From contig NZ_CANLZZ010000002.1 in assembly GCF_947495725.1 (NCBI RefSeq), forward strand, positions 372,001-436,000: 64,000 nucleotides of DNA, given 5' to 3'. The stretch's first letter is position 1; each line of letters begins with the position of its first letter. The translations under genes and the position numbers were made by a program. Under the pieces are notes generated by a model. The model was not told the DNA's origin and did no database searches. It saw only the letters and a program-made list of their open reading frames with translations. The DNA comes from an uncultured Lutibacter sp. (GTDB lineage: Bacteria > Bacteroidota > Bacteroidia > Flavobacteriales > Flavobacteriaceae). Below are positions 5,835 through 62,058 of the stretch, piece by piece.

Positions 5835-7763
5835 ATGAAACGTAGAAACTTTTTTAAAACAGGAGCAAAAGGAGCATTAGCAGCAGGATTATTTCCAATT
5901 ATGGGAGATATTACTGCACAAACTTCAAGTAGTTCAGATAAAAGATTATTTAATTGGAATGAAGGTGTAGAAGGAATTAAAGGAGATCCAATTAGAAGGA
6001 AAATATTAAATGTAGATGTTGCAGTTATTGGTGGTGGAATGTCTGGGATTTCGGCAGCTGTTTCTGCAGCTAGAAATGGAGCAAAAGTAGTTTTAGTGCA
6101 AGATAGACCAGTTTTAGGAGGTAATGCATCTAGTGAAATGAGGGTTACGGTTAATGGAGTTCAAAGTTTAAGTAATAAACACAAAGTTGAACGTGAAACA
6201 GGTATAGTTGAAGAACTTTTAATTGAAAATTGGCATTATAACCCACAAGAATCTTACCCAGTTTGGGATCACGTTTTGTATAATTATGTGGTTCGTGAAA
6301 AAAATTTAACCTTATTGTTAAATACGTCGGCAATAAGTGTCGAAATGAATGATGATAAAATAAAGTCTGTTGTTTGTAGACAATTAACAACTGAAACAGA
6401 TTTTACCATAAACGCAGCTATGTTTTGCGATTGTTCTGGAGACGGATTTATGGCAGCTTCAGCAGGAGCGGAATTTAGAATGGGGCGTGAAGGAAAAGCT
6501 GAATTTAACGAGAAATATGCTCCAGACGAACCAGATGGTTGGGTAATGGGAGATTGTTTTATGATGATAACCAAAGATATGGGTAAACCTGTACCTTTTT
6601 ATCCTCCAGAATATGCTATTCCGTTTGATGCTGAAACCGCTTTTAAAGACAAACACAGAAAAGTGAAGCAAGTAAAAGAAGGTTTTTGGTGGGTTGAATT
6701 AAGTAGCGATGTTGATATTATTGGTGAGAGAGATGAAATTCGTCATAGATTAATGGCTCATTTTTATGGAGTTTGGGATCATATTAAAAATTCAGGAAAT
6801 TTCCCTGAAGCAGAAAATATTGCGTTAGATTGGATTGGTTCTATTCCAGGACGTAGAGAGTCTCGCAGATTTATGGGAGATTATATTTTAAAAGAAGGCG
6901 ATTTATTGGGGAACACTCAATTTGATGATGCAATTGCCTTTGGTGGTTGGAGTTTAGATGAACATTGCCCAGGAGGTATTGAAAACCTAAAAGAACCAGC
7001 TAGTTATTTTCATTCAAGATTTAAAGAAGTATACCAAGTACCTTTTAGATGTTTATATTCTAAAAATATTTCAAACTTATTATTTGCCGGAAGAAATGTA
7101 AGTGTTACGCATATGGCGTTGTCTTCAACAAGAATTATTGGTACTTGCTCTATGATGGGACAAGCAGCAGGAACAGCCGCGGCAATGTGTGCTGAAAAAG
7201 GGGTAAATCCAAGAGGATTATATCAAAATAATATGAATGAATTGCAAGAGCAACTACTGCGTGATGATTCATATTTCCCAAACCGACCAGCAAATGATCC
7301 AAAAGACAAAGCTAAAAAAGCAGCTACTATTTTTGCCTCATCAACAGCATCTGGAGATGCTAAATTATTGTTAGACGGTGTGTCGCGTGATGAAATTGAG
7401 AAAATTCACCATTGGCAATCTGAAGGTTTAAATGAAGAGTTACAGTTAGAATGGAACAAGCCTCAAAAATTAACAAGCGTTGAAATGAAGTTTGATACAA
7501 ACTTACAGCGTAAAATGATGATGCATAAAAACCCTGAAAAAAACAAAGGGCAAATTATAGGAATTCCTCCTGAATTAATTAAAAATTTAAGTGTTGAAGC
7601 TAGAGTTAAAGGTGATTGGGTTGAAGTTGGAAAAGTAGATTATAATAAAACACGATTGGTTAAAGTTAATTTCAATGAAGTTAAAACTACCGCGGTGCGT
7701 GTTAAATTAAAAGAAACTCACGGAGCAGAAAGTATAAAAATGTTTGAAATACGTTGTTACTAA
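5835..7763 (+). CDS. FAD-dependent oxidoreductase (FAD_oxidored type), Tat-exported
   Basis: Protein of 642 residues. The N-terminus KRRNFFKTGAKG followed by an Ala/Leu stretch is a twin-arginine signal, implying folding with FAD in the cytoplasm and export. Residues 61-71 give the dinucleotide fingerprint DVAVIGGGMSG, followed by E/D-type FAD contacts and GGNASSEM near 95. LLFAGRNVSVTH and GTCSMMGQAAGTAAA in the C-terminal half are the typical closing FAD-binding blocks of this family. A ~140-residue beta-rich tail (from ~500) looks like a discoidin/carbohydrate-binding type domain. Members of this family are common near PULs but poorly characterised; the electron acceptor and substrate are unknown. 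It is followed after 7 bases by a putative flavoprotein, suggesting a redox pair. Confidence 0.85.
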   Translation: MKRRNFFKTGAKGALAAGLFPIMGDITAQTSSSSDKRLFNWNEGVEGIKGDPIRRKILNVDVAVIGGGMSGISAAVSAARNGAKVVLVQDRPVLGGNASSEMRVTVNGVQSLSNKHKVERETGIVEELLIENWHYNPQESYPVWDHVLYNYVVREKNLTLLLNTSAISVEMNDDKIKSVVCRQLTTETDFTINAAMFCDCSGDGFMAASAGAEFRMGREGKAEFNEKYAPDEPDGWVMGDCFMMITKDMGKPVPFYPPEYAIPFDAETAFKDKHRKVKQVKEGFWWVELSSDVDIIGERDEIRHRLMAHFYGVWDHIKNSGNFPEAENIALDWIGSIPGRRESRRFMGDYILKEGDLLGNTQFDDAIAFGGWSLDEHCPGGIENLKEPASYFHSRFKEVYQVPFRCLYSKNISNLLFAGRNVSVTHMALSSTRIIGTCSMMGQAAGTAAAMCAEKGVNPRGLYQNNMNELQEQLLRDDSYFPNRPANDPKDKAKKAATIFASSTASGDAKLLLDGVSRDEIEKIHHWQSEGLNEELQLEWNKPQKLTSVEMKFDTNLQRKMMMHKNPEKNKGQIIGIPPELIKNLSVEARVKGDWVEVGKVDYNKTRLVKVNFNEVKTTAVRVKLKETHGAESIKMFEIRCY

Positions 7764-7770
7764 TTAATAT

Positions 7771-8904
7771 ATGAATTTTAATAAAATTCTTATAGTGCTA
7801 TTCTTTCCAGTTTGGGTGTTTTTCCAAATTGGAGAGGATAGTTATTCTTCTGAATTTAGAAAAATAGAACACGAAATAACCGTTGGTCATCCAGGAAATG
7901 AGGATAACGGGTTGGAGCAATCTACACTTGTTGAGGTTAGAAATAAAAAAGGAATGGCCGTTGAATTCTATATGAATGTAGAGTCTGTTATTTGTGTAAA
8001 AAGTGTTTGTAAAGTTGTACCTGTTCGTATTTTTTGGAATAATCTTGGTGAATATCAAAAGTATGAGCTAGATAAGGGTGTAACCCTTGAAAAGTACGAA
8101 GCTGATCTTTTTGAAAAACAAGATTATGTAAAATTACAAAGCATACTTTCAGATTTAGATTCGCCATTTAAAAATGTAAGAATTGATGAAATTTTAACTG
8201 TTGCAGATGAAACGCATAACGATGTTGATGCTGTTTCTGGTGCCACAGCATTGGAGTTAGATGAAGAAGATACAGTGCCTGGAGCTGCTTTAACTTGTTT
8301 TACACTCTGGCATTGGGCACACGGTGATATTGAAATTATTATTAGAAATTTTACAGGCAAATCATTAAAAAAACAGGATTTTAAAAACTACATAACTTCA
8401 ACAAAAGAAAAAGAGCAATTGTTTGCAATTGAGCAATTGTTAGAAACAAAAAACTACAAAAAGATCCTTGTTGATGCGGTTATTAACGAAACTTCAAAAA
8501 ATGATAATTTATTAAGAAGTACTTTCAAGTATTTTAACAACGCTTCTGATAAAAAATACTTTCAAGCTATTGAAAAACTATTTTTAAAAGGAAATGAAAA
8601 ACAAAAAATAACGGCTTTAAATTCTCTTTTAAATAGCAAAAGAAGTGTTTCTTCAAAATATTTAGATGGTTTAAGTAAAGAGGTTTTATCATTAAAAACA
8701 TACCAAGAAATTTCTATTTTTTTGAGATTAATGAAAGCTAAAAATTCTAATTCTCAAGAAGTAATAAAACATACCATTCCATTATTAGGCAAAGATTTAT
8801 TAATTGCCAGAAGTGTTTATTGGTTTTTAAAAGATAAAAATTTGTCTGACGAACAGCAGCGAAAACTAGCCTTGTTTTATGCTGAAAACGAAGATCAACT
8901 ATAA
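7771..8904 (+). CDS. Putative FMN-binding (flavinylated) protein with HEAT-like tail
   Basis: Protein of 377 residues with an N-terminal hydrophobic segment (residues 5-19) acting as signal or anchor. Residues ~35-190 form a compact domain containing D153-A-V-S-G-A-T159. This matches the Dgx(s/t)GAT acceptor motif at which ApbE-type transferases attach FMN to the Thr in NqrC/RnfG and related FMN_bind domains. C75 and C80 and a C176..HW.H cluster are further possible redox features. Residues ~195-377 are helical with repeat-like spacing, resembling HEAT repeats. It sits between a Tat-exported flavoenzyme and a CstA carrier, so an electron-transfer partner role is inferred. The fold assignment rests on the motif and should be treated as provisional. 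Confidence 0.55.
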   Translation: MNFNKILIVLFFPVWVFFQIGEDSYSSEFRKIEHEITVGHPGNEDNGLEQSTLVEVRNKKGMAVEFYMNVESVICVKSVCKVVPVRIFWNNLGEYQKYELDKGVTLEKYEADLFEKQDYVKLQSILSDLDSPFKNVRIDEILTVADETHNDVDAVSGATALELDEEDTVPGAALTCFTLWHWAHGDIEIIIRNFTGKSLKKQDFKNYITSTKEKEQLFAIEQLLETKNYKKILVDAVINETSKNDNLLRSTFKYFNNASDKKYFQAIEKLFLKGNEKQKITALNSLLNSKRSVSSKYLDGLSKEVLSLKTYQEISIFLRLMKAKNSNSQEVIKHTIPLLGKDLLIARSVYWFLKDKNLSDEQQRKLALFYAENEDQL

Positions 8905-8921
8905 ACGAAACTAACTGAATT

Positions 8922-10361
8922 ATGATTACTTTTTTAATTTGTATAGGAGTGCTAATTGCAGGCTATTTTATATATGGAACCTATGTAGAACGTAAATTTG
9001 AAATAGATATAAACAGAAAAACTCCGGCAATTACTAAAGAAGATGGTGTAGATTATGTACCATTAAAACTTCGAAAAATATTTTTAATTCAATTTTTAAA
9101 TATTGCAGGACTAGGACCAATATTTGGAGCAATAGCTGGGGCACTTTGGGGACCAGTTGCTTTTATTTGGATCGTTTTTGGATGTATTTTTGCAGGTTCG
9201 GTGCACGATTATTTTTCAGGAATGTTGTCAATTAGACACGATGGTGAAAGTATTCCAGAAATTGTGGGGACATATTTAGGAAATGGAGTAAAGCATTTTA
9301 TGCGAGTTTTCGCAGTAGTATTACTAATTTTAGTTGGAGTAGTTTTTGTTAAAGGCCCAGCAACAATTTTACAAGAATTAACAGGTGTAAGTGTTACCAT
9401 TTTAATAGCAATAATTTTTGTTTACTATTTATTAGCTACTATGATACCTATTGATAAATTGATAGGTAAAATATATCCAATTTTTGGATTATCATTATTA
9501 ATAATGGCAGTTGGGTTATTTATTGCTGTAATGTTTCAAGGTTATACAATTCCAGAATTAACTCCAGAGAATTTAATTAATATGCATAGCAATCCAGATA
9601 AATATCCAATATTTCCAATGTTGTTTATTACTATTGCTTGTGGTGCAATTTCTGGGTTTCACGCAACACAATCCCCATTAATGGCGCGTTGTATTTCAAA
9701 CGAGGCTCACGGTAAAAAAATATTCTTTGGAGCAATGATTACAGAAGGTATTGTAGCTTTAATTTGGGCAGCTGTTGCAATGGCATTTTTTGGAGGCGTT
9801 AGAGAGTTAGGCGCAACAATGGCAGAAGAAGGTCATAATGCGGCTTGGGTTGTAAACATTATTTGTAACACAATGCTTGGTAAAATAGGTGGGATTTTAG
9901 CAATTTTTGGTGTGGTTGCAGCTCCAATTACTTCAGGAGATACAGCTTTTAGAAGTGCGCGTTTAACTATTGCAGATTCTTTTAATATCAATCAAAGTAG
10001 TTTAGTAAAAAGATTAATGGTTACCATTCCTATATTTTTAATAGGTTTAGCATTAACTCAAATCAACTTTGCTATTATTTGGAGATATTTTGGGTGGTCT
10101 AACCAAATGTTAGCAACCATTGTACTTTGGGCAGCAGCAGTTTATATGAAAAAACAAGGTAAAAAAGCTTGGTTTATTTTAATTCCTGCAGCTTTTATGA
10201 CCGCAGTTGTAACTACTTATATATTGGTTGCTCCAGAAGGATTTCAATTAAATTATGGACTTTCTTATTCAATAGGAATAACAGTTGCTGTATTATTAAC
10301 GATGTGGTTTATATTTTCTAAATCAATTTCTAAAATAAAAAAAGAGAACAAAAAAATATGA
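8922..10361 (+). CDS. cstA: CstA-family carbon-starvation carrier (short form)
   Basis: Integral membrane protein of 479 residues with about 12 hydrophobic helices. Family blocks visible are FLNIAGLGPIFGAIAGALWGP, GSVHDYFSGMLSIRHDGESIPEIVG, SGFHATQSPLMARC and the conserved C-terminal region TSGDTAFRSARL. E. coli CstA is about 700 residues; this is the short form common in other phyla. E. coli members (CstA, BtsT) import pyruvate, and peptide uptake has also been proposed. It lies 17 bases after the flavoprotein and overlaps the next gene by 4 bases (ATGA), so it is translationally coupled to a GH2. A CstA inside a sulfatase-rich PUL is unusual; pyruvate released from pyruvylated galactan is an attractive but unproven cargo. 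Confidence 0.85.
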   Translation: MITFLICIGVLIAGYFIYGTYVERKFEIDINRKTPAITKEDGVDYVPLKLRKIFLIQFLNIAGLGPIFGAIAGALWGPVAFIWIVFGCIFAGSVHDYFSGMLSIRHDGESIPEIVGTYLGNGVKHFMRVFAVVLLILVGVVFVKGPATILQELTGVSVTILIAIIFVYYLLATMIPIDKLIGKIYPIFGLSLLIMAVGLFIAVMFQGYTIPELTPENLINMHSNPDKYPIFPMLFITIACGAISGFHATQSPLMARCISNEAHGKKIFFGAMITEGIVALIWAAVAMAFFGGVRELGATMAEEGHNAAWVVNIICNTMLGKIGGILAIFGVVAAPITSGDTAFRSARLTIADSFNINQSSLVKRLMVTIPIFLIGLALTQINFAIIWRYFGWSNQMLATIVLWAAAVYMKKQGKKAWFILIPAAFMTAVVTTYILVAPEGFQLNYGLSYSIGITVAVLLTMWFIFSKSISKIKKENKKI

Positions 10362-12991
10362 AATTTTTAAAATTCGGATTATTTGTATTGTTATTTGCAA
10401 TAATTTCAAACAGAACAAATGCACAACAAAAATTTTCTACGGCAGGTTTTTACGAAGTAGAAAACAGTCCACGAAAGGTTTTTAATTTTAATATTGGTTG
10501 GCGTTTTTACAAAGGTGATGTTAAAGGTGCAGAAACAGTAGATTTTAACGATTCGAATTGGGAAGCAGCAAATTTACCTCACGGATTAGAAATTTTGCCA
10601 GAAAATGCAAGTGGAGGTAGAAATTATCAAGGTAAGGCTTGGTATAGAAAAGAATTTACCGTTAATGAAAATTCAACTTTTTCAAAAACATTTTTATATT
10701 TTGAAGCTGTAATGGGAGTTGCGAAAGTTTGGGTAAATGGAGAATTGGTTGCCGAACATTATGGAGGTTATTTACCTTTTGCTGCAGACGTTTCAAAAGT
10801 ATTGAAAAAAGGAAAGAATGTTGTAGCTGTAATGGCTGATAATAGCGATAGTAAATTGTACCCTCCAGGTAAACATCAAGGTGGATTAGATTTTAGTTAT
10901 TTAGGCGGAATTTACAGAGATACTTATTTAATTCAAACAAAGCCAATATATATTACACTTACAGAGCTTAGTAAAACCGTTGCTGGCGGTGGTGTTTTTG
11001 TTGGAACAAAAGAAATAAATGGCAACAATGCTAAAATAGGAATTAGAACAGAGATTGCTAATAATTCGAATAAAACACAAACTATAATAGTTAAATCTGT
11101 TTTAGAAAATTCAGAAATTAAAGAAATTAAATCAACACAACAATCGGTAAGATTGCAAGCAGGAAAATCTAAACAATTATCAAAAGATTTAAAAGTAGAA
11201 AATGTTCATTTATGGCATCCAGATGATCCATATTTGCATTTTATTAGAACAGATGTTATTGTAAACGGAAAAATTGTAGACCAAACAAGAACTCGTTTTG
11301 GAATTCGATTGTTTGAAATGAAAGGAGCTGAAGGATTGTTTGTAAACAATAAATATATAGGTAAAAAATTAGTTGGTGTAAATCGTCATCAAGATTATGC
11401 GTATGTTGGTAACGCCGTTCCAAATTCAAGTCATTATAGAGATGTAAAACTATTACGCGAAGGCGGTAGTCATATAATTAGAGTTGGTCATTACCCTCAA
11501 GACGATGCTTTTTATGATGCTTGTGATGAATTAGGAATGTTAACAACAACAGCAAATCCGGGTTGGCACTTTTTTAATTTTAAAGAAAAAATATTTGAAG
11601 AACGTTTATATGAAGATTCTCATAATTTAGTTCGAAAAGATAGAAACAGACCTTCAATTTTATTGTGGGAAACCGCTATTAACGAAACACCTTCGCAGCC
11701 AGATCACGCAATGAATAATATGCACAAGGCTGCACATTCTGAATATTCTTTTCCAGGAATGTACACAGTTACTGATTATGAAGAAGCTGAAAAAGGAGGG
11801 TTGGATGTGTATTATCATGGGAATTCTAAAACAGTGAATTCGTTTAACAGAGAATTTGGAGATGGTAATGAAGTGGACGATTGGTATTCGCAAAATTCAA
11901 TAGTACGTGTAAAACGTGAATGGGGAGAAAAAGCAATGCTCGATCAATCTTTAAGACAAGCACATCAATTATCGCAAAGATTTAAAACAGATAAAGTTCG
12001 TATTGGTGGCGCAATGTGGGCTGGTATTGACCATCAAAGAGGTTACCATCCAGATCCATTTTTAGGAGGACATTTAAATGTATTGAGATTGCCTCGTTAT
12101 ACGTACTATTTGTATAAAAGTCAAAATTCGGCAGATTATAAATTGAATGGTATTGAAACTGGTGCTATGATTTATAATACAAATGAATTAACCCAATTAT
12201 CAGGCAGCGATGTTATTATTTATAGCAATTGCGATGAAATAAAACTGACTTGGATGGGGAAAGATTATGGAATTCAGAAACCATCAACAGATTCAAAATA
12301 TGATGGTTTACCGCATCCTCCATTTGTTTTTAAAAATGTTTTTTACTTAGATAAAATTCGCCATAGAAAAGGAGATCAGAGAGGTGCAATTAGATATATG
12401 ATTTCTGAAGGATTTATTGATGGGAAATCAGTTGTAAAGGATGTAAAAACCTATGCTATGAGATCTGAAAAATTGCAATTAAGTATAGCCGATGAAGGGT
12501 TGAAGTTAATGGCAGATGGATCTGATTTTGTTCCTGTTAGAGCTACTATTGTTGACTTAAATGGAGCAAAAAAAGTACTTGCTGAAGAGTCTGTTTATTT
12601 TGAAGTAAAAGGTCCTGCAGAAGTTATTGGAGGAATTCAAAATATGAGTAATCCTGTTAAATCTTCTTTTGGTATTGCAACAGCTTTAATAAGAGCTACT
12701 AATAAACCAGGTGTTATTAAGGTTCGCGCTTATGTAAAAGGATTAAAATCAGATGAAATTACTTTAGAATCAAAACCTTCAAAACAGAAAATGCTTTTTG
12801 ATGAAAATTATGTTGCAAATTCTAAAAAAGTTGATAAAGATAAAGTAACAATAGAACAAGTTAAGGAAGAGAAATTACCTACAAATATTAAAAAACTTCA
12901 AGAAGAAATTAAAATGTTAAAGCTACAATTGGTTGGTAAAGATCAACAATTAATGGAATTAAGAAGTAACCCAGAAGGAGAAAAAAATTAA
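10358..12991 (+). CDS. GH2 beta-galactosidase-like enzyme with C-terminal coiled coil
   Basis: Secreted 877-residue GH2 with signal peptide cleaved near NAQ23. Domains: jelly-roll sugar-binding domain (~40-200), Ig-like domain (~205-320), TIM barrel (~325-620) and beta-rich C-terminal domains. Putative acid/base E443 follows N442 (TAINET) and the putative nucleophile is E499 (NREFG). The subgroup signature GxHIIRVGHYPQD..FYDACDELG is shared with GH2s at 48474 and 58402. The last ~40 residues form a heptad-rich coiled coil (IKKLQEEIKMLKLQL), unusual for GH2. The start overlaps the CstA stop by 4 bases. Substrate is probably a beta-galactoside, but GH2 also includes glucuronidases and mannosidases. 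Confidence 0.88.
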   Translation: MKFLKFGLFVLLFAIISNRTNAQQKFSTAGFYEVENSPRKVFNFNIGWRFYKGDVKGAETVDFNDSNWEAANLPHGLEILPENASGGRNYQGKAWYRKEFTVNENSTFSKTFLYFEAVMGVAKVWVNGELVAEHYGGYLPFAADVSKVLKKGKNVVAVMADNSDSKLYPPGKHQGGLDFSYLGGIYRDTYLIQTKPIYITLTELSKTVAGGGVFVGTKEINGNNAKIGIRTEIANNSNKTQTIIVKSVLENSEIKEIKSTQQSVRLQAGKSKQLSKDLKVENVHLWHPDDPYLHFIRTDVIVNGKIVDQTRTRFGIRLFEMKGAEGLFVNNKYIGKKLVGVNRHQDYAYVGNAVPNSSHYRDVKLLREGGSHIIRVGHYPQDDAFYDACDELGMLTTTANPGWHFFNFKEKIFEERLYEDSHNLVRKDRNRPSILLWETAINETPSQPDHAMNNMHKAAHSEYSFPGMYTVTDYEEAEKGGLDVYYHGNSKTVNSFNREFGDGNEVDDWYSQNSIVRVKREWGEKAMLDQSLRQAHQLSQRFKTDKVRIGGAMWAGIDHQRGYHPDPFLGGHLNVLRLPRYTYYLYKSQNSADYKLNGIETGAMIYNTNELTQLSGSDVIIYSNCDEIKLTWMGKDYGIQKPSTDSKYDGLPHPPFVFKNVFYLDKIRHRKGDQRGAIRYMISEGFIDGKSVVKDVKTYAMRSEKLQLSIADEGLKLMADGSDFVPVRATIVDLNGAKKVLAEESVYFEVKGPAEVIGGIQNMSNPVKSSFGIATALIRATNKPGVIKVRAYVKGLKSDEITLESKPSKQKMLFDENYVANSKKVDKDKVTIEQVKEEKLPTNIKKLQEEIKMLKLQLVGKDQQLMELRSNPEGEKN

Positions 12992-17598: not shown

Positions 17599-17643
17599 TA
17601 AAAACAGGAATTTTAAATGTGTAAACATGAAATTAAATATAAA

Positions 17644-20286
17644 ATGAAAAACAAATTATTAATTATTACAATAATATTATTTTCAGTTAGCTGTTATTCT
17701 CAAAATTTTTCAACAGATGGAAATGGAATTAGAAATAGTATAATCGCTCAAATAAAAGGAGAAAACACACTTTATTTATCAGAATTAGACGGGAGAATTT
17801 CGTCGTATACTTTAAATGGTGAAAAGTTGTGGTCTAGGGAAACAGCATCACCCGCCGTGTTGTTTGAAATTAATGCTGTTGATGTTAATAACGATGGTAA
17901 TGAAGATGTAATCGCTGCAAGTGGAGATGGAAATATTTATTGCTGGGACAGTAAAGGAACTCTACTATGGAAGTTTAATCCAGGACATAAAGTACGTTTT
18001 AGTGAAGTTGCAATTGTAAATAATGGTAAAATTCAAATTTTTGCTGGAGGAAACAATTATAAATTGTATGAATTAGATAGTAAAGGAAAACTTGTTTCAA
18101 CAACTCCTATTGATGGTGTTGTTAGAAAAATTGAAGCAGGAAACTTTCTGGATGCAAACAAGCAATCATTGTTTTTGTATACGTATAATCACGATAAATT
18201 TCGTTGGGAATTTATGGGCTTTTTAAATGCTGAAACTAAAGAAGTAATTAAAAGTGTTACTATTAATGATAAAAGATTAGATGAACTTAGAAAAGCAATG
18301 GTTACTGATGTTTCAATTGCAGATATAAATGGAGATAATAAAGATGATGTCTTATTTTTTGGGGATATATCTTGGGTACCATTGGTTTTAGCTGTTGATG
18401 GAGATTTTAATGTTATTACAAAGTTTAAAGGGTCGAGAAAAGAAGTGCAACGTTATGCACATGCTAAAGGAACATTTTTAGCAAAAAAATACGAAATAAT
18501 GTTGCAATATGGCGGAATTTTATTTGTGTTAAATTCTAAAGGTGAATTAATAGGTAAGTCAGGAGAAAGATATGGTAAAATGGTTTACAGCGATTTTGTG
18601 TTAGAGCCTAAATCCAATCAATTAATTGCTGCAGGGGAAGTTGACGGTGGAAATAGTGTTTATTTTTACAATTTAAATAAAAAAGATTGGTGGAAAAAAG
18701 CACAAAAAAGACAAGGTAGAATGCAAGAGGTTGCTGAAAATTTAGATAAATTATATGAGCAAACCTTGAATTTTAAATTACCAAGTTATCAGAAAAAATC
18801 TGATAAAGAATGGGTAATGATCACTTCAAAAAAAATTGATAGCAAAGTTGAAAGGTTAAAAGGAGGTGATATAAAATTTGTTATTCAAAAAGCACCAAAA
18901 GAAGGAACAGATAGATCGCATTTAGTAGCAAAAATTGGAAAATCTGCATTAAAAAAAGATAAACGAGGAAAATATAAAAGTACTAGAGAGGAAATTGTTC
19001 AAATGGCAAGAGATTATGAAGCACAAGGACAGCCTTTTACATTTTGGGCAGGTCACGGAAACGATCCTTTTTATATTCAAATTGAAACCTTAGAAAAAAT
19101 ATTGGAAGTTGCTCCAAAAACTTGTTATGGCTTTGTGTATGCTGAAATGGATAAAGTAGACGATCCAAGAGTTATTCATTTTGTAAAAGAATATATGCCT
19201 CGTTTGGCAAAAGCAATTCGTAAAAATAATAGAGCCAAATTATATTTTAGATATAAAAATATGTTTTGGGCAGCAACATCGCATTTACCATTGTGGAAAG
19301 AGATGTTTTTTTCTGGGAAATATAACGATATTTTAGCTCCAGCTTCAGAAGATACCAGTAATAGAATTCAAGATTTAAATTTAGCAGGAAGAGTAGGAAT
19401 GTTTTCTGGTGGTTATGTAAATGATTTTACAATGCGTTTAATAGACGACAATCCTACAAGTTGGAGACCGTTATCTCCAGGAGGGCAAAATTCTATTTCA
19501 CCGTATTTAAGACAAGGTGTAATTATGGCAGCTTATGGTGCTCGTTATGGAGTTGTTGCAAATAATAATTTTACCGAAAATCCAGGGCTAAATGTACTAT
19601 TTGCACTTATGAAATCTGGTGTGTTGCCAGTGGTTGAAAAAGAAGATATTCAATCTATTGGTTCGTGGCATTTAATTAAAAATGTTGATGAGCATTTAAT
19701 TCACTCGGTAGATACGCATCATAATTTGAAACAATACAAACAGGATGATGAAAATGCTGTTTTTTCGGTAGGACAAATGCATTGGGCGGGAACAAATGTA
19801 CCTGAACACGATTTTTCAAATGCTGCTTTAGGAGTTAAATATCGTTGGTTAAATTATATGCCAGAGATGCCTTATGGAATGGTTCCAGTTGCACCTATTG
19901 AGAGTAGTGAGTTTGTTACAAAACAGAACAAACCGTATTTTGTATCAAATGCAAAAGTTGGGTTTGTTAATGGTAAAAAGGTTGAAGCAAATCAGTTTGG
20001 TTCAACAATAACAAAAACGGTAAAAGAAGGAGCAGAAAAGTTGCCAATTTTAGTTGAAGGAGCATCTTGGAGTGCTATAATAATTGATAAAAACCATACA
20101 AGAATAATTTTGGTTGATCCTGGTTATATAAATCCTGAAAAAAGAGAAGTAGTTGTTAAATTTCAACATAGAAAACCAAAATCTGCTATAGATATTTTAA
20201 GTAATGAAGCTGTAGAAATTAAAAGTAATACATCTAAAATTGTGGTACCTGCAGGTTCAATTAGATTTATTGATGTTGTATATTAA
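17644..20286 (+). CDS. Propeller-fused lambda-carrageenase-like (GH150-type) enzyme
   Basis: Secreted 880-residue protein. An ATG at 17617 is in frame, but 17644 starts right at the signal peptide (cleaved near SVSCYSQ) and is preferred. Residues ~25-365 form an FG-GAP/PQQ-like beta-propeller with calcium-loop strands DVNNDGNED (80-88) and DINGDNKDD. A linker (~365-400) leads to a ~480-residue C-terminal catalytic-type domain with blocks TFWAGHGNDPFYIQ, YGFVYAEMDK, YFRYKNMFWAA and AAYGARYGVVANN. This architecture (propeller, linker, large C-terminal domain, ~900 residues) is that described for GH150 lambda-carrageenases. The assignment is from remembered architecture and neighbours (GH110, sulfatases), not alignment. 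It heads an operon with two sulfatases. Confidence 0.5.
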   Translation: MKNKLLIITIILFSVSCYSQNFSTDGNGIRNSIIAQIKGENTLYLSELDGRISSYTLNGEKLWSRETASPAVLFEINAVDVNNDGNEDVIAASGDGNIYCWDSKGTLLWKFNPGHKVRFSEVAIVNNGKIQIFAGGNNYKLYELDSKGKLVSTTPIDGVVRKIEAGNFLDANKQSLFLYTYNHDKFRWEFMGFLNAETKEVIKSVTINDKRLDELRKAMVTDVSIADINGDNKDDVLFFGDISWVPLVLAVDGDFNVITKFKGSRKEVQRYAHAKGTFLAKKYEIMLQYGGILFVLNSKGELIGKSGERYGKMVYSDFVLEPKSNQLIAAGEVDGGNSVYFYNLNKKDWWKKAQKRQGRMQEVAENLDKLYEQTLNFKLPSYQKKSDKEWVMITSKKIDSKVERLKGGDIKFVIQKAPKEGTDRSHLVAKIGKSALKKDKRGKYKSTREEIVQMARDYEAQGQPFTFWAGHGNDPFYIQIETLEKILEVAPKTCYGFVYAEMDKVDDPRVIHFVKEYMPRLAKAIRKNNRAKLYFRYKNMFWAATSHLPLWKEMFFSGKYNDILAPASEDTSNRIQDLNLAGRVGMFSGGYVNDFTMRLIDDNPTSWRPLSPGGQNSISPYLRQGVIMAAYGARYGVVANNNFTENPGLNVLFALMKSGVLPVVEKEDIQSIGSWHLIKNVDEHLIHSVDTHHNLKQYKQDDENAVFSVGQMHWAGTNVPEHDFSNAALGVKYRWLNYMPEMPYGMVPVAPIESSEFVTKQNKPYFVSNAKVGFVNGKKVEANQFGSTITKTVKEGAEKLPILVEGASWSAIIIDKNHTRIILVDPGYINPEKREVVVKFQHRKPKSAIDILSNEAVEIKSNTSKIVVPAGSIRFIDVVY

Positions 20287-26806: not shown

Positions 26807-28576
26807 ATGAAAAAAATAAGTTGTTTTTTATTGTTATTTAGTTTCGTTGTTCTACAAGTTTTTGCTCAAGAAAAAGGAGAGGTTAAAAACAAAGCTGAAG
26901 AGGTTAATTCTATCCATGTTTTTAAAGGAGAAGTTCAAAAGAGGGAAAAGAAAAAGAAGCCTATGGTTGTGAATCGTGAACGACCGGCCGAATGGAATAA
27001 TTTAGTGTTTGGAGGACGTTTTATGGATTTGTTTTTGCCTATGCCAGATTTAGGAGGTTTGACTTCCAATACTTGGGGTTCTTCAGGTGTTGTTCCAAGA
27101 GATTTGAATAATGGAATTGAAGATCCAAATTGGTCCTTCTGGGGAGGAAACACAAGATTATTAGAAGACGGGAACTACCATTTATTTGTTGCTCGTTGGC
27201 CTGAAAGTGCAGAAGGTGGTCATATGGCTTGGCCTTTATCTGAAGTTGTTCATGCGGTTTCAAAAAATCCATTTGGACCTTTTAAAGTTAAAGGTGAAAA
27301 AATTGGAGAGGGACATAATCCGGAATGGTTTGTTACTAAAGAAGGGAAATACTTAATTTACGTAATTAATTGCGATTACATAGCTGATAATATTAACGGA
27401 CCATGGAAAAAAATTAAACATAAGTATAATAGCCGCGATCGAGTTCAAAAAAAAGTAGCGCATCATTATTTGCATAACAATACGTTTGCACAACGTGAAG
27501 ATGGTTCTTTTATGATGGTTAACAGGCACGGACAAGTTTGGTTTAGTGAAAATGGAGAAAGTGAATGGGGAAGGATTACACAAGGGAAAATTTATCCACC
27601 AGTTGAAGGGAAATACGAAGATCCTGTAATTTGGAGAGACAATGTTCAATATCATTTACTTATAAACGATTGGTTAGGAAGAATTGCTTGGCATTTACGC
27701 TCAAAAAATGGAGTGAAATGGAAAGTTGATGCTGGAGAAGCATATGTTCCTGGCATAACATACCATAAAAATGGAGTTAAAGAAGATTGGCATAAGTATG
27801 AACGTCCGAAGGTAGTTCAAGATAAATATGGAAGAGCTTTTGCAATAAATTTAGCTGTGTTAGATACCTTGAAATATGAAGATCTAGCGAATGATAATCA
27901 TAGTTCTAAATTAATTACAGTTCCGTTGGTGAAAAACAAACTGATAAAAGTTTTAAACAATAAAGCACCCTCTAAATCAACCAAAAATATTGAAGTTGTG
28001 ATTCAATCAGAAGAAGATTTTAATCCGTTAACAGACATAGATTTTTCTACATTAAGATTTGGAGCACCAGAGGAAGTTGATTTTGGGAGAGGTTGTAAGT
28101 TTATTAGTTCTAAAAAGTTAGGAAGCAATTTAATGCTAACTTTTAATGTTGAAGGAAATGGATTTGATAACAACAATTTCACAGGGAAATTATTAGGTAA
28201 AACAGCAAAAGGAGAATTGTTAATAGCATACAGTAGATTGCCTTGGGTTAATTATTCAGAGCCTATTTTATCAACTTTATTGCCAACATTCGAAAAAACT
28301 TCTGAAGGAGCTATAATTAATGTTGAGGTTGAAAACTTTGGAGAATATGCTTCAAAAAAATCACTTTTAAAGGTTGTGGTTAGTTTAAACAAAACTGAAG
28401 TTTTGAATTTAGAGGGAGAAATCAAACCGTTGAAGCCATTTGAAAAAACAATTGTTCAATTTAAAACAAATGATAGTGTAAAGCAGAATACAAAGTATAA
28501 TGTTAAGACAATTATTATTTCAAAAGGAATTGACCCTGTTGAATTTGAAGTTGAAAAAATATTGATTAAAGAATAG
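26807..28576 (+). CDS. Five-bladed beta-propeller hydrolase, GH43/GH117-like, with CARDB-like tail
   Basis: Secreted 589-residue paralogue of the proteins at 1612 and 4435. After the signal peptide (FAQ21) there is a charged Lys/Glu-rich linker (~22-62). The propeller follows with VPRDLNNGIED, FWGGN, VVHAVS..FGPF, GHNPEWF, YEDPVIW (D272) and YERPKVV (E332), then an extra beta domain as in the 1612 protein. A C-terminal ~110-residue Ig/CARDB-like domain (~478-589) is unique to this member. It is 6 bases after a sulfatase and 6 bases before an SGNH esterase. Glycosidase activity is inferred from the fold; the family is not one I can name. Confidence 0.7.
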   Translation: MKKISCFLLLFSFVVLQVFAQEKGEVKNKAEEVNSIHVFKGEVQKREKKKKPMVVNRERPAEWNNLVFGGRFMDLFLPMPDLGGLTSNTWGSSGVVPRDLNNGIEDPNWSFWGGNTRLLEDGNYHLFVARWPESAEGGHMAWPLSEVVHAVSKNPFGPFKVKGEKIGEGHNPEWFVTKEGKYLIYVINCDYIADNINGPWKKIKHKYNSRDRVQKKVAHHYLHNNTFAQREDGSFMMVNRHGQVWFSENGESEWGRITQGKIYPPVEGKYEDPVIWRDNVQYHLLINDWLGRIAWHLRSKNGVKWKVDAGEAYVPGITYHKNGVKEDWHKYERPKVVQDKYGRAFAINLAVLDTLKYEDLANDNHSSKLITVPLVKNKLIKVLNNKAPSKSTKNIEVVIQSEEDFNPLTDIDFSTLRFGAPEEVDFGRGCKFISSKKLGSNLMLTFNVEGNGFDNNNFTGKLLGKTAKGELLIAYSRLPWVNYSEPILSTLLPTFEKTSEGAIINVEVENFGEYASKKSLLKVVVSLNKTEVLNLEGEIKPLKPFEKTIVQFKTNDSVKQNTKYNVKTIIISKGIDPVEFEVEKILIKE

Positions 28577-40850: not shown

Positions 40851-43463
40851 ATGAAATTATTGAAAATTGTATTGGTCATTTTTTTGAGTGTTGCGTTTAC
40901 ATCCAATGCTCAGAAGAATAATGTTGCAGATAATGGGAGTTTGATACCATTAGGAACTAAAATTTTTAAAAACCTACCATATGTAAAAGATGGACATTCT
41001 CTTCAAAAACTTGATTTGTATTTACCTGAAATTTCAAGTAAAGAATCTTTACCGTTAATAGTTTGGATACATGGTGGAAGTTGGAAAAAAGGGTCTAAAA
41101 ATATGATTGAGAGAAATGCATTTGTCTTAAAACATGGTTTTGCATTAGCTTCTATAAATTATCGTCTCGTACCTGAACATATATATCCAGCTCAAATTCA
41201 TGATTGTAAAGCTGCAATTCGCTATTTAAGAAAAAATGCAAGAAGTTTCGGAATTGACCCTGATAAAATTGGAGTTTGGGGCTCCTCTGCGGGTGGACAT
41301 TTAGCAGCTCTTTTGGGGACAACAAATGGAGTTGAAGAATTAGAAGGATCTATTGGTATAACAAATGTATCTAGTAATGTACAAGCAGCATGTAATTGGT
41401 TTGGGCCTTCAGATATGATTGAAATGGGTGCGTATAACATAAAAAAGTTGAAACCTGAGGTTGACCCAGTTGTACAGCTTATTGGAGGAGTAATTCAAAA
41501 AAATATTTCTAAGGCTAAAATGGCTAGTTCAATTAATTATGTTAGTGAAGATGATGTGCCTTTTTTATTGATGCATGGTGAACAAGATTCGAATGTTCCT
41601 TGTACAGAAAGTGAAAATTTACATAAACGACTGCAAGTGGCAAATGTGGATACAAAGTTGATTCTTGTTCAAGATGCAGGTCATGGGTTTTTCAAAGAAA
41701 AAAAATTGCATCAGAATGTAGTGGATTTTTTTGAAAAGAATTTAATAAATAGTAATCAAGTAGCAACAATTCAAAATGAATCAGAGTGGATTCAACTTTT
41801 TAATGGAAAAGACCTTACAGGTTGGATTCCAAAAATTAGAGGTCATAAGCTCGGGGTTAATTATGCTGATACCTTTAGAGTTAAAGATGGTTTGTTAACT
41901 GTGTCTTATGATAAATATAAAGAAACAGATTTAGTGAATTTGGATGGTAAAGGGAAGAGTACTTTTGACAAATTTGGACACCTTTTCTATAAAGAACCTT
42001 TATCTCATTATATACTGCGAGTGGAATACCGTTTTATAGGTGATCAAATAAAAAATGGACCAGAATGGGCATTTCGTAATAGCGGTATTATGATTCATGG
42101 TCAAGATCCATCCCAGATGAAAAAGATGCAAAAATTTCCTATTTCATTAGAAGCTCAATTACTTGGTGGAAATGGTAAAGATGATCGTTCAAATTTAAAT
42201 CTATGTACCCCAGGAACTAATGTTGAAATTGGAGGAGAATTAATTAAAAAACCGATAACTAAAAGTAATTCAGAAACTTTTCATGGAGATCAATGGGTTG
42301 AGGTAGAAATAGAGGTACACGGTAATGATATTATTCGGTATAAAATTGGTGGGAAAACTGTTATAGAATATTTTAAACCACAGTTTGATAAACGTTTACC
42401 TGAAGTATTACCATTTATTGAAAACAATAACATTTTAATAGATAAAGGAACGATTTCATTACAATCTGAGAGTCACCCAATTCAATTTCGAAAAATTGAA
42501 TTAAAAAAACTAAATCCGAAGAATAAAGCTTATCGTTTTATCGGTAACTGGGCATTGTCTATGCCATATGGTTCTGCTGGATGGCTGTCTATTACCGAGA
42601 AAGATGAGAATTTAAAAGGAGAGCTATGGATGGTAGGAGCGCCTAAACCTTTGTCAGATATTTCAGTTGAAAATAATAAACTCTATTTTACGCATAACCG
42701 TTCAATTGGTGAGCGGAAATATAAAGACGGTCCTGCCTCTGGTCCAAAAATAGCCCTTAAACATTCAGCAACAATTATAGGTGATAAATTAAATATAGAA
42801 GTTGAAGTGCCAAAAAATGATGGAACTTTCAAAAAAGTGAAATTTAACGGTGTGCGTATTGCACCAACACCTCCTAAACCAGATTTAAGTCAAGTTGAAT
42901 ATGGAGAGCCAATAGAGTTATTTAATGGAAAAGATTTGAACGGGTGGAAGCTAACAAACCCAAATCAAATAAATAAATGGAAAGCTGTTGATGGTGTTTT
43001 GTTTAATGATACACCTAAAAAAACCTTCAACCCTTTTGCCCATTATGGTAATCTAAGAACTGAAAGAGAATTTACTGATTTTAATTTAGATCTAGAATTT
43101 AATGTCCCAAAAGGAGGTAATAGCGGAATATATTTAAGAGGACTTTATGAGGTGCAGGTTGTAGACCATGATAGTAGAATGCAAGGTATGCACGGAGTAG
43201 GATCTATTTTTAATCGAATTATACCAAAAGGAAATTTCGGTAAAGCTGGAGGTGAATGGCAGCATTATAATATCACACTAATTGACCGTCATGTAACCGT
43301 TATTTTAAATGGTGAAAAAGTAATTGATAATGAGCCTATTCTTGGATGTACAAATGGTGCTTTACATGCAGATGTAATAAAACAAGGTCCAATCTATTTG
43401 CAAGGAGATCATACCAAAGTTAGATATCGAAATATTATTATTAAAGAAATTATTAAAAAATAA
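40851..43463 (+). CDS. Alpha/beta-hydrolase esterase fused to two DUF1080 (3-keto-glycoside hydrolase-type) domains
   Basis: Secreted 870-residue fusion, signal peptide cleaved near NAQ21. Residues ~35-300: BD-FAE/lipase-type esterase with oxyanion HGG (74-76), nucleophile S146 in GSSAG, and MHGEQDSNVP and AGHGF supplying Asp and His. Residues ~310-545: a concanavalin-like DUF1080 domain (LFNGKDLTGW). A linker beta domain covers ~555-680, and a second DUF1080 domain ~690-870 (LFNGKDLNGW, GNSGIYLRG). DUF1080 proteins include 3-keto-disaccharide hydrolases that cut oxidised glycosides by elimination; others may merely bind sugars. The three-part fusion is unusual. It heads a sub-operon with GH110 and GH29. 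Confidence 0.85.
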   Translation: MKLLKIVLVIFLSVAFTSNAQKNNVADNGSLIPLGTKIFKNLPYVKDGHSLQKLDLYLPEISSKESLPLIVWIHGGSWKKGSKNMIERNAFVLKHGFALASINYRLVPEHIYPAQIHDCKAAIRYLRKNARSFGIDPDKIGVWGSSAGGHLAALLGTTNGVEELEGSIGITNVSSNVQAACNWFGPSDMIEMGAYNIKKLKPEVDPVVQLIGGVIQKNISKAKMASSINYVSEDDVPFLLMHGEQDSNVPCTESENLHKRLQVANVDTKLILVQDAGHGFFKEKKLHQNVVDFFEKNLINSNQVATIQNESEWIQLFNGKDLTGWIPKIRGHKLGVNYADTFRVKDGLLTVSYDKYKETDLVNLDGKGKSTFDKFGHLFYKEPLSHYILRVEYRFIGDQIKNGPEWAFRNSGIMIHGQDPSQMKKMQKFPISLEAQLLGGNGKDDRSNLNLCTPGTNVEIGGELIKKPITKSNSETFHGDQWVEVEIEVHGNDIIRYKIGGKTVIEYFKPQFDKRLPEVLPFIENNNILIDKGTISLQSESHPIQFRKIELKKLNPKNKAYRFIGNWALSMPYGSAGWLSITEKDENLKGELWMVGAPKPLSDISVENNKLYFTHNRSIGERKYKDGPASGPKIALKHSATIIGDKLNIEVEVPKNDGTFKKVKFNGVRIAPTPPKPDLSQVEYGEPIELFNGKDLNGWKLTNPNQINKWKAVDGVLFNDTPKKTFNPFAHYGNLRTEREFTDFNLDLEFNVPKGGNSGIYLRGLYEVQVVDHDSRMQGMHGVGSIFNRIIPKGNFGKAGGEWQHYNITLIDRHVTVILNGEKVIDNEPILGCTNGALHADVIKQGPIYLQGDHTKVRYRNIIIKEIIKK

Positions 43464-43487: not shown

Positions 43488-43535
43488 ATGAATATAACTA
43501 TTCAATTAGTAAAAAATATAAAAACAATCGAATGA
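43488..43535 (+). other. 15-codon mini-ORF overlapping the GH110 start
   Basis: ATG at 43488 opens a 15-codon frame (MNITIQLVKNIKTIE) whose TGA overlaps the GH110 ATG as ATGA. It is the only ATG in the 68-base leader and could couple translation; chance is quite possible. Confidence 0.25.
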
Positions 43536-45349
43536 AAAGAATACAAATCTTATTTTTAATGCTTTTGGCATTTGCTTTAAATACAAACGCTCAAAAAATT
43601 AATGTTGCAGATTATGGCATTGAACCGGGAAAAGACGTAACCCTAGAAGTAAATCAATTAATAGAATCTTTGAAAGGAAAAAAAGATGTTACCTTATTTT
43701 TTCCAAAAGGACAATATGAGTTTTATCCTGAAAATGCTGTTGAAATGTATCGTGCAGTTACAAACCATGATAACAGTTTAAAACGATTGGCAATTCCAAT
43801 TTTTAACTTTGAAAATTTTACCTTAGATGGAAATGGATCAATGTTTATGTTTCACGGTAAAATTTGTCCTATTACTGTTAAAGGATCTACAAATACGGTG
43901 TTGAAAAACTTTACTATAGATTGGGAACATTCTTTTGTAAATGAAATGAAGGTTATAGAGAACAATGTTGAAGAAAACTCTTTTGTTGCCGAAATTAATT
44001 CAGGAAAATTTGATTTTAGAGTTGAAGACAATCAAATTTTATTTCAACATTACGATTGGGAAGATGTAATAGGACAAAATATAGCATTTGATCCAAAAAC
44101 AAAAGCTCCAATTTGGCATACAAGAAATTATAGTTTAAACGGAAAAGGAAAAGCAAAGGTAGAAAAGCTTGACGATGCGAGAGCTAAATTTACAAATATC
44201 ACTAAGGTTACTCCACCAGTTGGTACCGTGTTTGCAACTTATGGGCCAAGTCCAGGTGGAAACAGATTTGCACAAGCGATTCATTTAGATCAATCTAAAG
44301 ATAATTTTATCGAAAATGTTACGGTATTTGCAGCAGGAGGTATGGGTGTTATTGGTGAGCGTTGTGAAAACATTACCTTAAATAAATTTGTAGTCACTTC
44401 AAGAAGCGATAGAAACTTTGCAACAAGAGCAGATGCAACTCATTTTTTAGGATGTAAAGGTTTAATTAAAGTAGAAAATTGCTTGTTAGAACATATGATG
44501 GATGATGGAATTAATGTTCACGGAGCGTATATTAAAGTAGAAAAATATTTAGGGGAAAATCAGTTTTTATGTGAAATAAGTCATAGCCAACAATGGGGCT
44601 TAGTTTTTGCTGAGCCAGGAGACAAAATAATGTTAACTTCAAGAGAAACGGTATTGCCAATTTTTGAAACTACGGTAACAAAGGCAAAAATCTTAAATGA
44701 AAAAAGAGTTTTAATTACGGTGAATGAAGTTCCAGAGAAAATGCCAAAAGGACCACTTTCATTTGAAAATATTACTTGGAATCCAGATTTAATTATAAGA
44801 AATAATACCATAAGAGATAATAGAGCAAGAGGCGCTTTAATTACAACTAAAGGAAATGTATTGGTAGAAAATAATTTCTTTTCATCTCAAATGCACGGTA
44901 TTTTAATTGAAGGAGATAACAAAGCTTGGTACGAGTCTGGTGGAGTTAGAGATATTACAATAATAAACAATACGTTTGATAATATTGGTTATGGTTCAGG
45001 TGAGCATTACCCATTATATGCGGCGCCATTATTTTTACCAAACCAACATATTGGGGCAGAAAAATACCACCATAATATTACTTTTTCAAACAATAAAATT
45101 AAGAGTTATAATGGATTGCTAGTGCACGCCTTTAATGTAATAGGGCTTAAGGTTGAGGGTAATGAAGTTGAACTAAGTACTAAATACCCAACAGGTTCAA
45201 AATTGCCAACAGTTTCTTTAGATTATTGTGAAAACGTTTCAATACAAAAGAATAAGTTTAGTGATTTTTCATGGCCTTTAAAGGTTGAGAAGTCAGAGAA
45301 TTCAACAAGTGTTGTTGTTAAAAAGAACAAAGGGCTTTCAAAAAAGTAA
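43532..45349 (+). CDS. GH110 alpha-1,3-galactosidase
   Basis: Secreted 605-residue parallel beta-helix enzyme, signal peptide cleaved near NAQ21. The family blocks are clear: FNFENFTLDGNGSMFMFHG, NRFAQAIHLDQSKDNFIENVTVFAAGGMGVIGERC, TRADATHFLGCKG (D301) and MMDDGINVHG (D324-D325), the acidic residues being catalytic candidates for this inverting family. GH110 removes alpha-1,3-linked galactose; characterised members act on blood group B/linear alpha-Gal, and a marine one on lambda-carrageenan-derived oligosaccharides. It sits between the esterase/DUF1080 fusion and a GH29. It is the strongest clue that the locus targets an alpha-1,3/beta-1,4 galactan. Confidence 0.88.
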   Translation: MKRIQILFLMLLAFALNTNAQKINVADYGIEPGKDVTLEVNQLIESLKGKKDVTLFFPKGQYEFYPENAVEMYRAVTNHDNSLKRLAIPIFNFENFTLDGNGSMFMFHGKICPITVKGSTNTVLKNFTIDWEHSFVNEMKVIENNVEENSFVAEINSGKFDFRVEDNQILFQHYDWEDVIGQNIAFDPKTKAPIWHTRNYSLNGKGKAKVEKLDDARAKFTNITKVTPPVGTVFATYGPSPGGNRFAQAIHLDQSKDNFIENVTVFAAGGMGVIGERCENITLNKFVVTSRSDRNFATRADATHFLGCKGLIKVENCLLEHMMDDGINVHGAYIKVEKYLGENQFLCEISHSQQWGLVFAEPGDKIMLTSRETVLPIFETTVTKAKILNEKRVLITVNEVPEKMPKGPLSFENITWNPDLIIRNNTIRDNRARGALITTKGNVLVENNFFSSQMHGILIEGDNKAWYESGGVRDITIINNTFDNIGYGSGEHYPLYAAPLFLPNQHIGAEKYHHNITFSNNKIKSYNGLLVHAFNVIGLKVEGNEVELSTKYPTGSKLPTVSLDYCENVSIQKNKFSDFSWPLKVEKSENSTSVVVKKNKGLSKK

Positions 45350-60777: not shown

Positions 60778-62058
60778 TTGAAAAAATACTTTTTAATATT
60801 AATCTCATTAGTTTGTTTGAATACTATTCATTCGCAATCTAATGAGATTAATTTATTACAAACAATCCGTTCTATTTCAAACATAGAAAATGTTAAAGGT
60901 TTAGCTGTTGAAGTAGATGTTAATACTATTACAGCATCTAAAGAAAAAGATGAAGAAAAACTAAAATATGCTTGGTTTTCAATTCCCGTTTCTTCAGTAA
61001 ATAAACAATTAGAAACTTCAAAAAATATTGAAGCTAACGTTAAAAATACAAGTAAAGAAGTATTAAAAATAATGCTTTGGATTGTTGCTGATAAAGGTTG
61101 GAATGCTGTAGGTAATTCAGTTGAAATTAAACCAAATGAAACAAAAACAGTTTCTTGTAATGTAAGAGCTACTTTTCCAGACGGTACGCCAAGATTAAAT
61201 CCAACTAACATTCAACAAATTCAATTAATGTTGATGAAAGGTCAGAAAGGTTCATCCTTTGAACTTCAAAATTTGATTGCTAACGGAAATACTTCAAAAT
61301 TTAAAGAAAACAAAAATAGGTTAGTAGTTCCAAATATGGAATTTTGCAACCCTAAAGCAGGTAAAAGAGTTGCATATAAATTGGATAATTATTCAAATTT
61401 ATATTCGGTTTTGTATTTACCTAAAAACTACAAATCCAATAAAAAGTATCCTGTGATTGTTGAATTTCCAGGGAATATTTATTACACAGATAAAGTGTAT
61501 TCTACAGGGAAACCAGAGCAATGTGTAATTGGTTATGGAATGTCTAAAGGTAAAGATGCAATTTGGGTGAGTGTGCCATTTGTAGATTATAAAAAAGATA
61601 AAATTGCTGTAAGTGGTTGGGGAAACCCTGATAATACGGCCGATTATACGATGAAAGTTGTAACCGAAATTATTGAAAAATATGGAGGAGATAAAGACAA
61701 TGTGGTTTTAACCGGATTTTCTAGAGGTGCAATTGCTTGTGGATATATTGGGTTAAGAAATGATACCATTGCTAATTTGTGGAAAGGAATTCATGCTTGT
61801 CAACATTATGATGGTGATGGTTGGGGTGGATCAAAATTGGATGAGGCTATTGAACGCTTAAAAAGATTTAAAGGAAAATCATTTTTTCAAACAGATAATA
61901 TTAGTGGTACAGAACCTAAAAACATGCTTTCAAAAGCAGCTGTAAAAACTACGTTTGTAAATTCAGGTTTAGGTGCGCACGCTTGCGATATGTTTTTAGA
62001 TAATAGACCGTCAACCTTGGAGTTGAGAAAGTGGTTTAATAATTTAATTTCCAACTAA
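60778..62058 (+). CDS. Secreted alpha/beta-hydrolase (esterase-like), TTG start
   Basis: Protein of 426 residues starting at TTG: the signal peptide KKYFLILISLVCLNTIHSQ follows directly, and the next in-frame Met is ~100 residues in, so TTG is the true start. Residues ~25-175 form a beta-sandwich resembling a carbohydrate-binding domain. Residues ~185-426 are an alpha/beta hydrolase with nucleophile S315 in GFSRGA and a C-terminal His in GAHACDMF, similar to feruloyl-esterase/PHB-depolymerase-type enzymes. Together with two SGNH esterases and the fusion at 40851, it suggests acylated substrate. Activity not certain. Confidence 0.75.
   Translation: MKKYFLILISLVCLNTIHSQSNEINLLQTIRSISNIENVKGLAVEVDVNTITASKEKDEEKLKYAWFSIPVSSVNKQLETSKNIEANVKNTSKEVLKIMLWIVADKGWNAVGNSVEIKPNETKTVSCNVRATFPDGTPRLNPTNIQQIQLMLMKGQKGSSFELQNLIANGNTSKFKENKNRLVVPNMEFCNPKAGKRVAYKLDNYSNLYSVLYLPKNYKSNKKYPVIVEFPGNIYYTDKVYSTGKPEQCVIGYGMSKGKDAIWVSVPFVDYKKDKIAVSGWGNPDNTADYTMKVVTEIIEKYGGDKDNVVLTGFSRGAIACGYIGLRNDTIANLWKGIHACQHYDGDGWGGSKLDEAIERLKRFKGKSFFQTDNISGTEPKNMLSKAAVKTTFVNSGLGAHACDMFLDNRPSTLELRKWFNNLISN

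Follow-up and report, generated by a model that had tools for sequence, protein, structure and literature searches.

The 64,000-nucleotide stretch of DNA analyzed here (hereafter the window; positions 372,001 to 436,000 of contig NZ_CANLZZ010000002.1 from an uncultured Lutibacter sp.) contains two neighboring open reading frames (ORFs) that encode an apparently exported flavin adenine dinucleotide (FAD)-dependent oxidoreductase of the PF12831 family and a 377-amino-acid (aa) protein predicted to carry covalently attached flavin mononucleotide (FMN). We consider it probable, at roughly 0.6, that the two proteins form a periplasmic redox pair serving glycan breakdown, in which the FAD enzyme would oxidize a sugar, the flavinylated carrier would accept the electrons, and a transporter, either CstA or an SSF symporter, would import the product. 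The computational evidence that carries this reading consists of the pairing of the two genes across genomes, the conservation of the flavinylation motif, the resemblance of the carrier domain to known FMN-binding folds, and the presence of apbE-like genes in related operons. The features of the pair are as follows (Tat, twin-arginine translocation).

5835..7763, + strand: Tat-exported FAD-dependent oxidoreductase, 642 aa, predicted from the PF12831 FAD_oxidored match and a twin-arginine start
7771..8904, + strand: FMN_bind-like carrier, 377 aa, predicted ApbE flavinylation substrate (motif and domain model)
7774..7830, + strand: N-terminal hydrophobic helix of the carrier, residues 2-20 (AlphaFold helix; signal peptide or membrane anchor)
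7849..8367, + strand: FMN_bind-like domain, residues 27-199 (structure model of the domain alone)
7993..8010, + strand: C75-x4-C80 pair, spanning a beta hairpin in the model (strands 63-76 and 79-89)
8227..8247, + strand: ApbE flavinylation motif D153-A-V-S-G-A-T159, residues 153-159, with T159 as the expected FMN attachment site
8353..8901, + strand: C-terminal ARM/HEAT-like helical repeats, residues 195-377 (structure model)

Conserved pairing of the FAD enzyme with the carrier

The 642-aa protein contains a full-length PF12831 domain (E 2e-91, profile positions 1-416 of 416); the remaining Pfam results are a 38-residue local match to PF00890 and a weak, sub-threshold match of the C-terminal region to DUF7402. 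The N-terminus, MKRRNFFKTGAKGALAAG, includes the twin-arginine motif KRRNFF and has the features of a Tat signal. In an alignment with 59 relatives (A2), the invariant positions include G66, G68, G71, R341, E342, R345, D375 and H377.

The contigs of one genome from each of 84,980 species were searched for relatives of the carrier, yielding 237 stretches, of which the best 80 were analyzed; PF12831-like genes in these loci were labeled by BLAST comparison with ten references, and Pfam was run on two of them, those of the window and of L065. A PF12831-like gene is directly adjacent to the carrier gene, on the same strand, in 71 of the 80 loci (upstream in 55, downstream in 13 and on both sides in 3), with 3 of the 71 adjacent FAD ORFs being fragments of 129-270 aa (L131, L135 and L136). 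Set against the presence of only four full-length PF12831 matches (12 matches overall) in the genome of the window, such adjacency is more than would be expected by chance. The pair was detected in 70 of the 74 loci from Bacteroidota and in one, the planctomycete L110, of the six loci from other groups (Planctomycetes, Kiritimatiellae, Pontiellaceae and Verrucomicrobia). Among the exceptions, L117, L122 and L147 are situated at the ends of contigs or close to them, the FAD gene of L144 is located behind a short ORF on the opposite strand, and L121, L127, L132, L138 and L150 lack an adjacent FAD gene. At least one labeled glycan gene is present in 63 of the 80 loci, and several of the 17 loci with none are on short contigs.

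The carrier family is uncommon, being represented in 32 of 299 Flavobacteriaceae genomes and in 8 of 395 genomes from a phylum-wide sample, that of the window included. The two genes also occur together in a Flavobacteriaceae set that overlaps with the 80 loci in some genomes: 36 of the 38 stretches hold a carrier ORF and, with the window added, a PF12831-like gene is found in 36 of 37 loci (it is absent in L070). One of the 32 family-bearing genomes, G213, retains only a C-terminal piece of the carrier, interrupted by two stops, with no carrier ORF in the respective stretch (L052).

The FAD partners are diverse: the two closest relatives aside, they comprise at least four divergent types, with 55-65%, 40-42%, 31-34% and 25-27% identity to the window's enzyme; therefore, one carrier family accompanies several exported PF12831 enzymes. 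Among the adjacent FAD proteins of at least 615 aa, the pattern RRx[FLM] occurs within the first 50 aa in 49 of 54, compared to none of the 14 shorter ones, suggesting that the long partner type is mostly exported via Tat and the short type is not.

Altogether, the pairing of the FAD enzyme with the carrier is well supported. A first-pass annotation of the window, made from the sequence alone, had proposed a trio of an exported FAD enzyme, an FMN protein and CstA. The pairing of an exported FAD enzyme with an apparently flavinylated carrier gains support from the Tat start, the motif and the adjacency conserved across genomes, on which the proposal depended; CstA as a fixed member does not hold, given that it occurs in only 11 of the 80 loci.

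Two further observations concern redox enzymes of these genomes. A close PF12831 paralog in the window's own genome (L227:6919-8841, contig C1) adjoins sulfatase genes; the stretch read contains no carrier gene, and this paralog may share the window's carrier. Genes of the XdhC type, implicated in molybdenum hydroxylase maturation, are located near the carrier in 5 of the 80 loci (L093:16782-17813 and its cluster, with Pfam run on L093 only), hinting at a further redox enzyme in carrier loci.

The carrier family and its predicted flavinylation

The motif of the carrier, DAVSGAT, agrees with the ApbE motif consensus D-x-x-[S/T]-G-A-[S/T] (PMC12052999). Both D153 and T159 are invariant in all 72 rows of alignment A1 and all 74 rows of alignment A3, and the strict form D-x-x-[ST]-G-A-[ST] is found in 58 of 72 and 59 of 74 rows, respectively; the variants among the carrier relatives include DAVAGET, DAMSGET and DAKAGAT. 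A hydrophobic N-terminal segment is present in 72 of the 74 relatives (ORFs of at least 330 aa). All 72 rows of A1 and all but two of the 74 rows of A3 retain both C75 and C80, which, judging from the hairpin in the model, probably form a structural disulfide.

The motif is in place, but the 377-aa protein has no FMN_bind match in Pfam, falling below the gathering cut-off for PF04205, and no NCBIfam match, so we denote the carrier FMN_bind-like rather than file it under PF04205. Among the domains of the 74 relatives, FMN_bind is the most frequently matched Pfam family, with 16 weak matches (best E 6e-4). Because the fold search with the full-length protein returned only ARM/HEAT-type repeats among the matches listed, the domain was modeled alone; the seven best structural entries are all FMN subunits of Rnf or Nqr, followed by a gap in the scores. 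Thus, the structure prediction, which could have spoken against an FMN_bind-like fold in the DAVSGAT protein, recovered the anticipated fold, with the model closest to the covalent-FMN subunits RnfG and NqrC.

The best chain in a search of PDB sequences with the carrier profile is 8p2b, an FMN-binding domain, at E values of 0.079 and 0.056 that are not significant. The alignment of the carrier family with 23 RnfG/NqrC-type FMN_bind proteins by hhalign gave P 2e-5 and a probability of 77, with the confident part limited to the motif; three carrier subgroups taken singly gave probabilities of 16-37 (P 3.6e-4 to 1.6e-3), and two other families used as controls gave P 0.4 and 0.9. The carrier is probably a remote relative of FMN_bind that acts like it.

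Ten of the 80 loci, from five genera (six loci from Dyadobacter, the others from Spirosoma, Rudanella, Arsenicibacter and Chitinophaga), have an ApbE-like gene immediately after the FAD gene. The Rudanella gene matches PF02424 at 1e-75, and the other nine were found through similarity to it. Four of these operons (L141, L149, L155 and L160) encode carriers with the DAKAGAT motif, so the Ser-to-Ala variant seems to be tolerated. The window's genome contains three ApbE genes, all outside the window, and ApbE is present in all 32 carrier-bearing Flavobacteriaceae genomes, a count that covers carrier-bearing genomes only. Flavinylation of the carrier is likely and, from motif and model, well supported, with T159 as the predicted site of covalent FMN.

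The nearest named relative of the carrier, from Lutibacter oricola, shows 94% identity, and the named members in the list of relatives are titled hypothetical or uncharacterized. A second, shorter carrier (281 aa, motif DGVSGAT) is encoded in the window's own genome (L053:9890-10732, contig C6), where it adjoins a PF12831 gene of its own (L053:10742-12541).

Proposed electron path, the transporter and alternative explanations

In the scheme that we favor, the FAD enzyme would be exported folded via Tat and would oxidize a sugar, or a sugar end, released from sulfated galactan. The N-terminal helix of the carrier would either anchor it in the membrane or direct its export, and an ApbE from another part of the genome would attach FMN to T159. 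Electrons would then pass from the substrate to FAD, to the Thr-bound FMN and on to the respiratory chain. Either the FAD enzyme or the next partner may bind to the ARM/HEAT repeats of the carrier, and the oxidized product would be imported by CstA or, in other loci, by an SSF symporter. Two points weigh against this scheme. The main gap is that no membrane electron partner for the carrier was found at the locus. In addition, the correlation between the carrier distances and the FAD-partner distances, although high and in favor of the pairing (r 0.87 for 68 pairs and 0.73 for 50 close pairs, with none of 2000 permutations as high), is partly expected from shared genome ancestry alone.

Locus L127, from a Pontiellaceae genome, lacks an FAD gene; directly after its carrier gene lies a gene (L127:11048-12067) whose product combines a planctomycete cytochrome c domain (E 3.4e-13) with a weak match to DUF2231 and is a candidate next electron acceptor. 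Relatives of this gene occur at a distance of at least six ORFs in L119 and L137.

The transporter gene follows that of the carrier.

8922..10361, + strand: CstA-family carrier, 479 aa (PF02554, E 2.4e-59)

No CstA ORF other than this one was detected in the window's genome, the three stretches that matched being parts of one frame. Of the 80 carrier loci, 11 encode CstA and 16 encode an SSF symporter. Among the 299 Flavobacteriaceae genomes, CstA is present in 28 and the carrier in 32; the two coincide in 20, compared to 3.0 expected (hypergeometric 7e-17, a value that ignores relatedness; both scans were taken as the same 299-genome draw, with matching tallies). Of the 33 Flavobacteriaceae CstA ORFs, 13 are near a carrier (11 adjacent and 2 within three genes). 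Among the other 20, nine lie within two ORFs of an FAD-profile match (profile matches only, one of them weak, E 3e-7), one lies three ORFs away from such a match, and for 10 the stretch read contains no such match; seven of these 10 loci show sulfatase, GH2, carrageenase-like or SusCD genes. CstA is uncommon in Flavobacteriaceae, yet it is often encoded beside genes that match the FAD profile or beside sulfatase and glycoside hydrolase (GH) genes, even where the carrier is missing (L207-L226). Thus, by these counts, CstA is an optional, mostly glycan-linked transporter rather than a fixed third part of the system.

It is also conceivable, if rather unlikely, that CstA has no connection with the pair, being a passenger or a nutrient carrier of the ordinary kind, which would be compatible with any reading of the pair. 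The absence of CstA from 69 of the 80 loci fits this possibility, as do the 10 of the 20 other CstA loci with no PF12831-like gene in the stretch read, whereas the location of the genome's sole detected CstA next to the pair, the 13 CstA ORFs that adjoin the gene of the FMN protein or lie at most three genes from it, and the nine within two ORFs of an FAD-profile match, argue for a connection. The window's CstA belongs to the same PF02554 family as the E. coli-type pyruvate carrier CstA (NF011590) but differs from it in being a 479-aa protein that scores 112 bits against the cut-off of 1188 and in its link to a glycan locus. Pyruvate from pyruvylated galactan was considered as the CstA cargo and dropped, there being no evidence for it.

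Within the pair, electrons could flow in the reverse direction, with the quinone pool supplying them to the flavinylated protein and the FAD enzyme reducing a sugar-derived or algal compound, in the manner of urocanate and fumarate reductases. This alternative has to be taken seriously, since the characterized PF00890 enzymes with FMN named in the available part of PMC8238504, Listeria FrdA and Shewanella UrdA, which combine a flavoenzyme with ApbE-attached FMN, are respiratory reductases. Flavocytochrome c fumarate reductases also head the PDB sequence matches of the FAD enzyme (E 2.6e-7), with the match spanning only residues 59-100, the nucleotide-binding start. However, the enzyme is a PF12831 protein from end to end, with only the local match to PF00890, and its gene shares growth loci with those of hydrolases, sulfatases and importers; many of these loci belong to aerobic genera such as Dyadobacter and Lutibacter. 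On balance, we regard reverse flow as unlikely.

Redox-neutral glycoside cleavage is known for GH4 and GH109, which use NAD, and the FAD enzyme might similarly oxidize, eliminate and re-reduce its substrate, with the FMN protein only re-setting the redox state. GH109- or Gfo/Idh-type genes near a few carrier relatives and the 3-keto-disaccharide hydrolase domain encoded in the window are compatible with this activity, but no 3-keto-disaccharide-hydrolase-like ORF was labeled in the 80 loci with a single query, and the dedicated, co-varying carrier suggests stoichiometric electron flow, which makes cleavage of this kind very improbable; a link to the 3-keto pathway was dropped on the same single-query result. 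Finally, the 377-aa protein could be a scaffold or chaperone for the FAD enzyme with an unflavinylated motif, as the missing FMN_bind match, repeats of a kind that suggests protein binding and the DAVAGET or DAMSGET motifs of some relatives might indicate, but the invariant Asp and Thr, the apbE-like gene in 10 operons, including the four with DAKAGAT carriers, and the RnfG/NqrC-like fold leave this explanation with hardly any weight.

The carrageenan locus and relation to known systems

Beyond the pair and CstA, the following genes define the setting.

10358..12991, + strand: GH2 glycoside hydrolase, 877 aa (Pfam GH2 domains), with the start overlapping the CstA gene by 4 bases
17617..20286, + strand: lambda-carrageenase (CGLA), context gene (PF25290, E 1.3e-61)
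43532..45349, + strand: GLAA-B-type enzyme, context gene (PF23763, E 5.5e-19)

The first-pass annotation had noted tight packing and coupling to a GH2 gene, and the coordinates of the four + strand ORFs bear this out: the gaps are 7 bases between the FAD enzyme and carrier genes and 17 bases between the carrier and CstA genes, and the CstA and GH2 ORFs share 4 bases. The window encodes six GH2 proteins (the last one cut by the window end), 14 sulfatases, CGLA and one GLAA-B-type protein (GH110). With lambda-carrageenase, GH110, GH2 enzymes and sulfatases all present, the window is a lambda-carrageenan-type utilization locus, a sulfated-galactan setting that agrees with the glycan-breakdown context suggested earlier. 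There is no SusC/SusD pair among the window genes scanned, and none was labeled in the 20 kb upstream (L071).

The locus resembles the carrageenan polysaccharide utilization loci of Zobellia and Pseudoalteromonas in combining sulfatases with GH2, and those of Pseudoalteromonas also in the presence of lambda-carrageenase and GH110 (PMC12549532). The available text of PMC12549532, on the lambda-carrageenan pathway, and that of PMC13168452 mention neither flavin or FAD nor an oxidoreductase; flavin and FAD are likewise not mentioned in that of PMC5698469, where a figure legend for the Zobellia locus lists an unspecified 'FR/SR' gene that may or may not correspond to the FAD enzyme.

The carrier itself shares with RnfG and NqrC, the FMN subunits of Rnf and Na+-NQR, the modeled domain fold, the ApbE-type motif, the apparent extracytoplasmic location and the N-terminal hydrophobic helix. 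It differs in having no Rnf or Nqr partners alongside, in the ARM/HEAT repeats and the CX4C pair, in the location of its gene next to that of a PF12831 enzyme, for the most part within glycan loci, and, in the case of the window protein, in being missed by the Pfam FMN_bind model. Flavinylated carriers that serve extracytosolic flavoenzymes have already been described (PMC8238504, PMC11334425), and FrdA and UrdA (PF00890 with FMN_bind) similarly combine an FAD enzyme with ApbE-attached FMN outside the cytosol (PMC8238504); unlike these, the system described here involves PF12831 rather than PF00890, a separate carrier gene, a glycan-locus setting and, probably, oxidation. Another parallel is the exaA alcohol oxidase cluster with a flavinylated NapH-like protein, for which extracytosolic oxidation feeding the flavinylated protein was proposed (PMC8238504), but there the enzyme and the membrane partner are different, and no such partner was found at the window locus. 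The words 'polysaccharide' and 'carbohydrate' are absent from the available main text of PMC8238504 and PMC11334425, and the pairing of PF12831 with an FMN carrier was not found in the literature searched, with preprints and most subscription papers outside the scope.

Tentatively, and at slightly worse than even odds, we propose that the polysaccharide loci of many Bacteroidota and at least one planctomycete encode an unrecognized respiratory branch, in which exported PF12831 enzymes would oxidize glycan fragments and pass electrons to a flavinylated ARM/HEAT carrier, harvesting energy outside the cytoplasm prior to uptake. If so, a redox step would be added to a breakdown route that, in the available parts of the papers cited, has so far been told as one of hydrolases and sulfatases; a carrier family whose named members are called hypothetical or uncharacterized would acquire a function; and the exported PF12831 flavoenzymes of these loci would become directly testable via their carrier. 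A family may also have escaped those surveys of flavinylation that depend on the FMN_bind model.

Several other proteins of the carrageenan locus merit mention. A single protein (40851-43463) combines a BD-FAE esterase domain with a C-terminal 3-keto-disaccharide hydrolase domain (PF06439). No Pfam match was obtained for three proteins, 426-589 aa in length (1612-2931, 26807-28576 and 60778-62058), the last two of which have relatives in other carrier loci.

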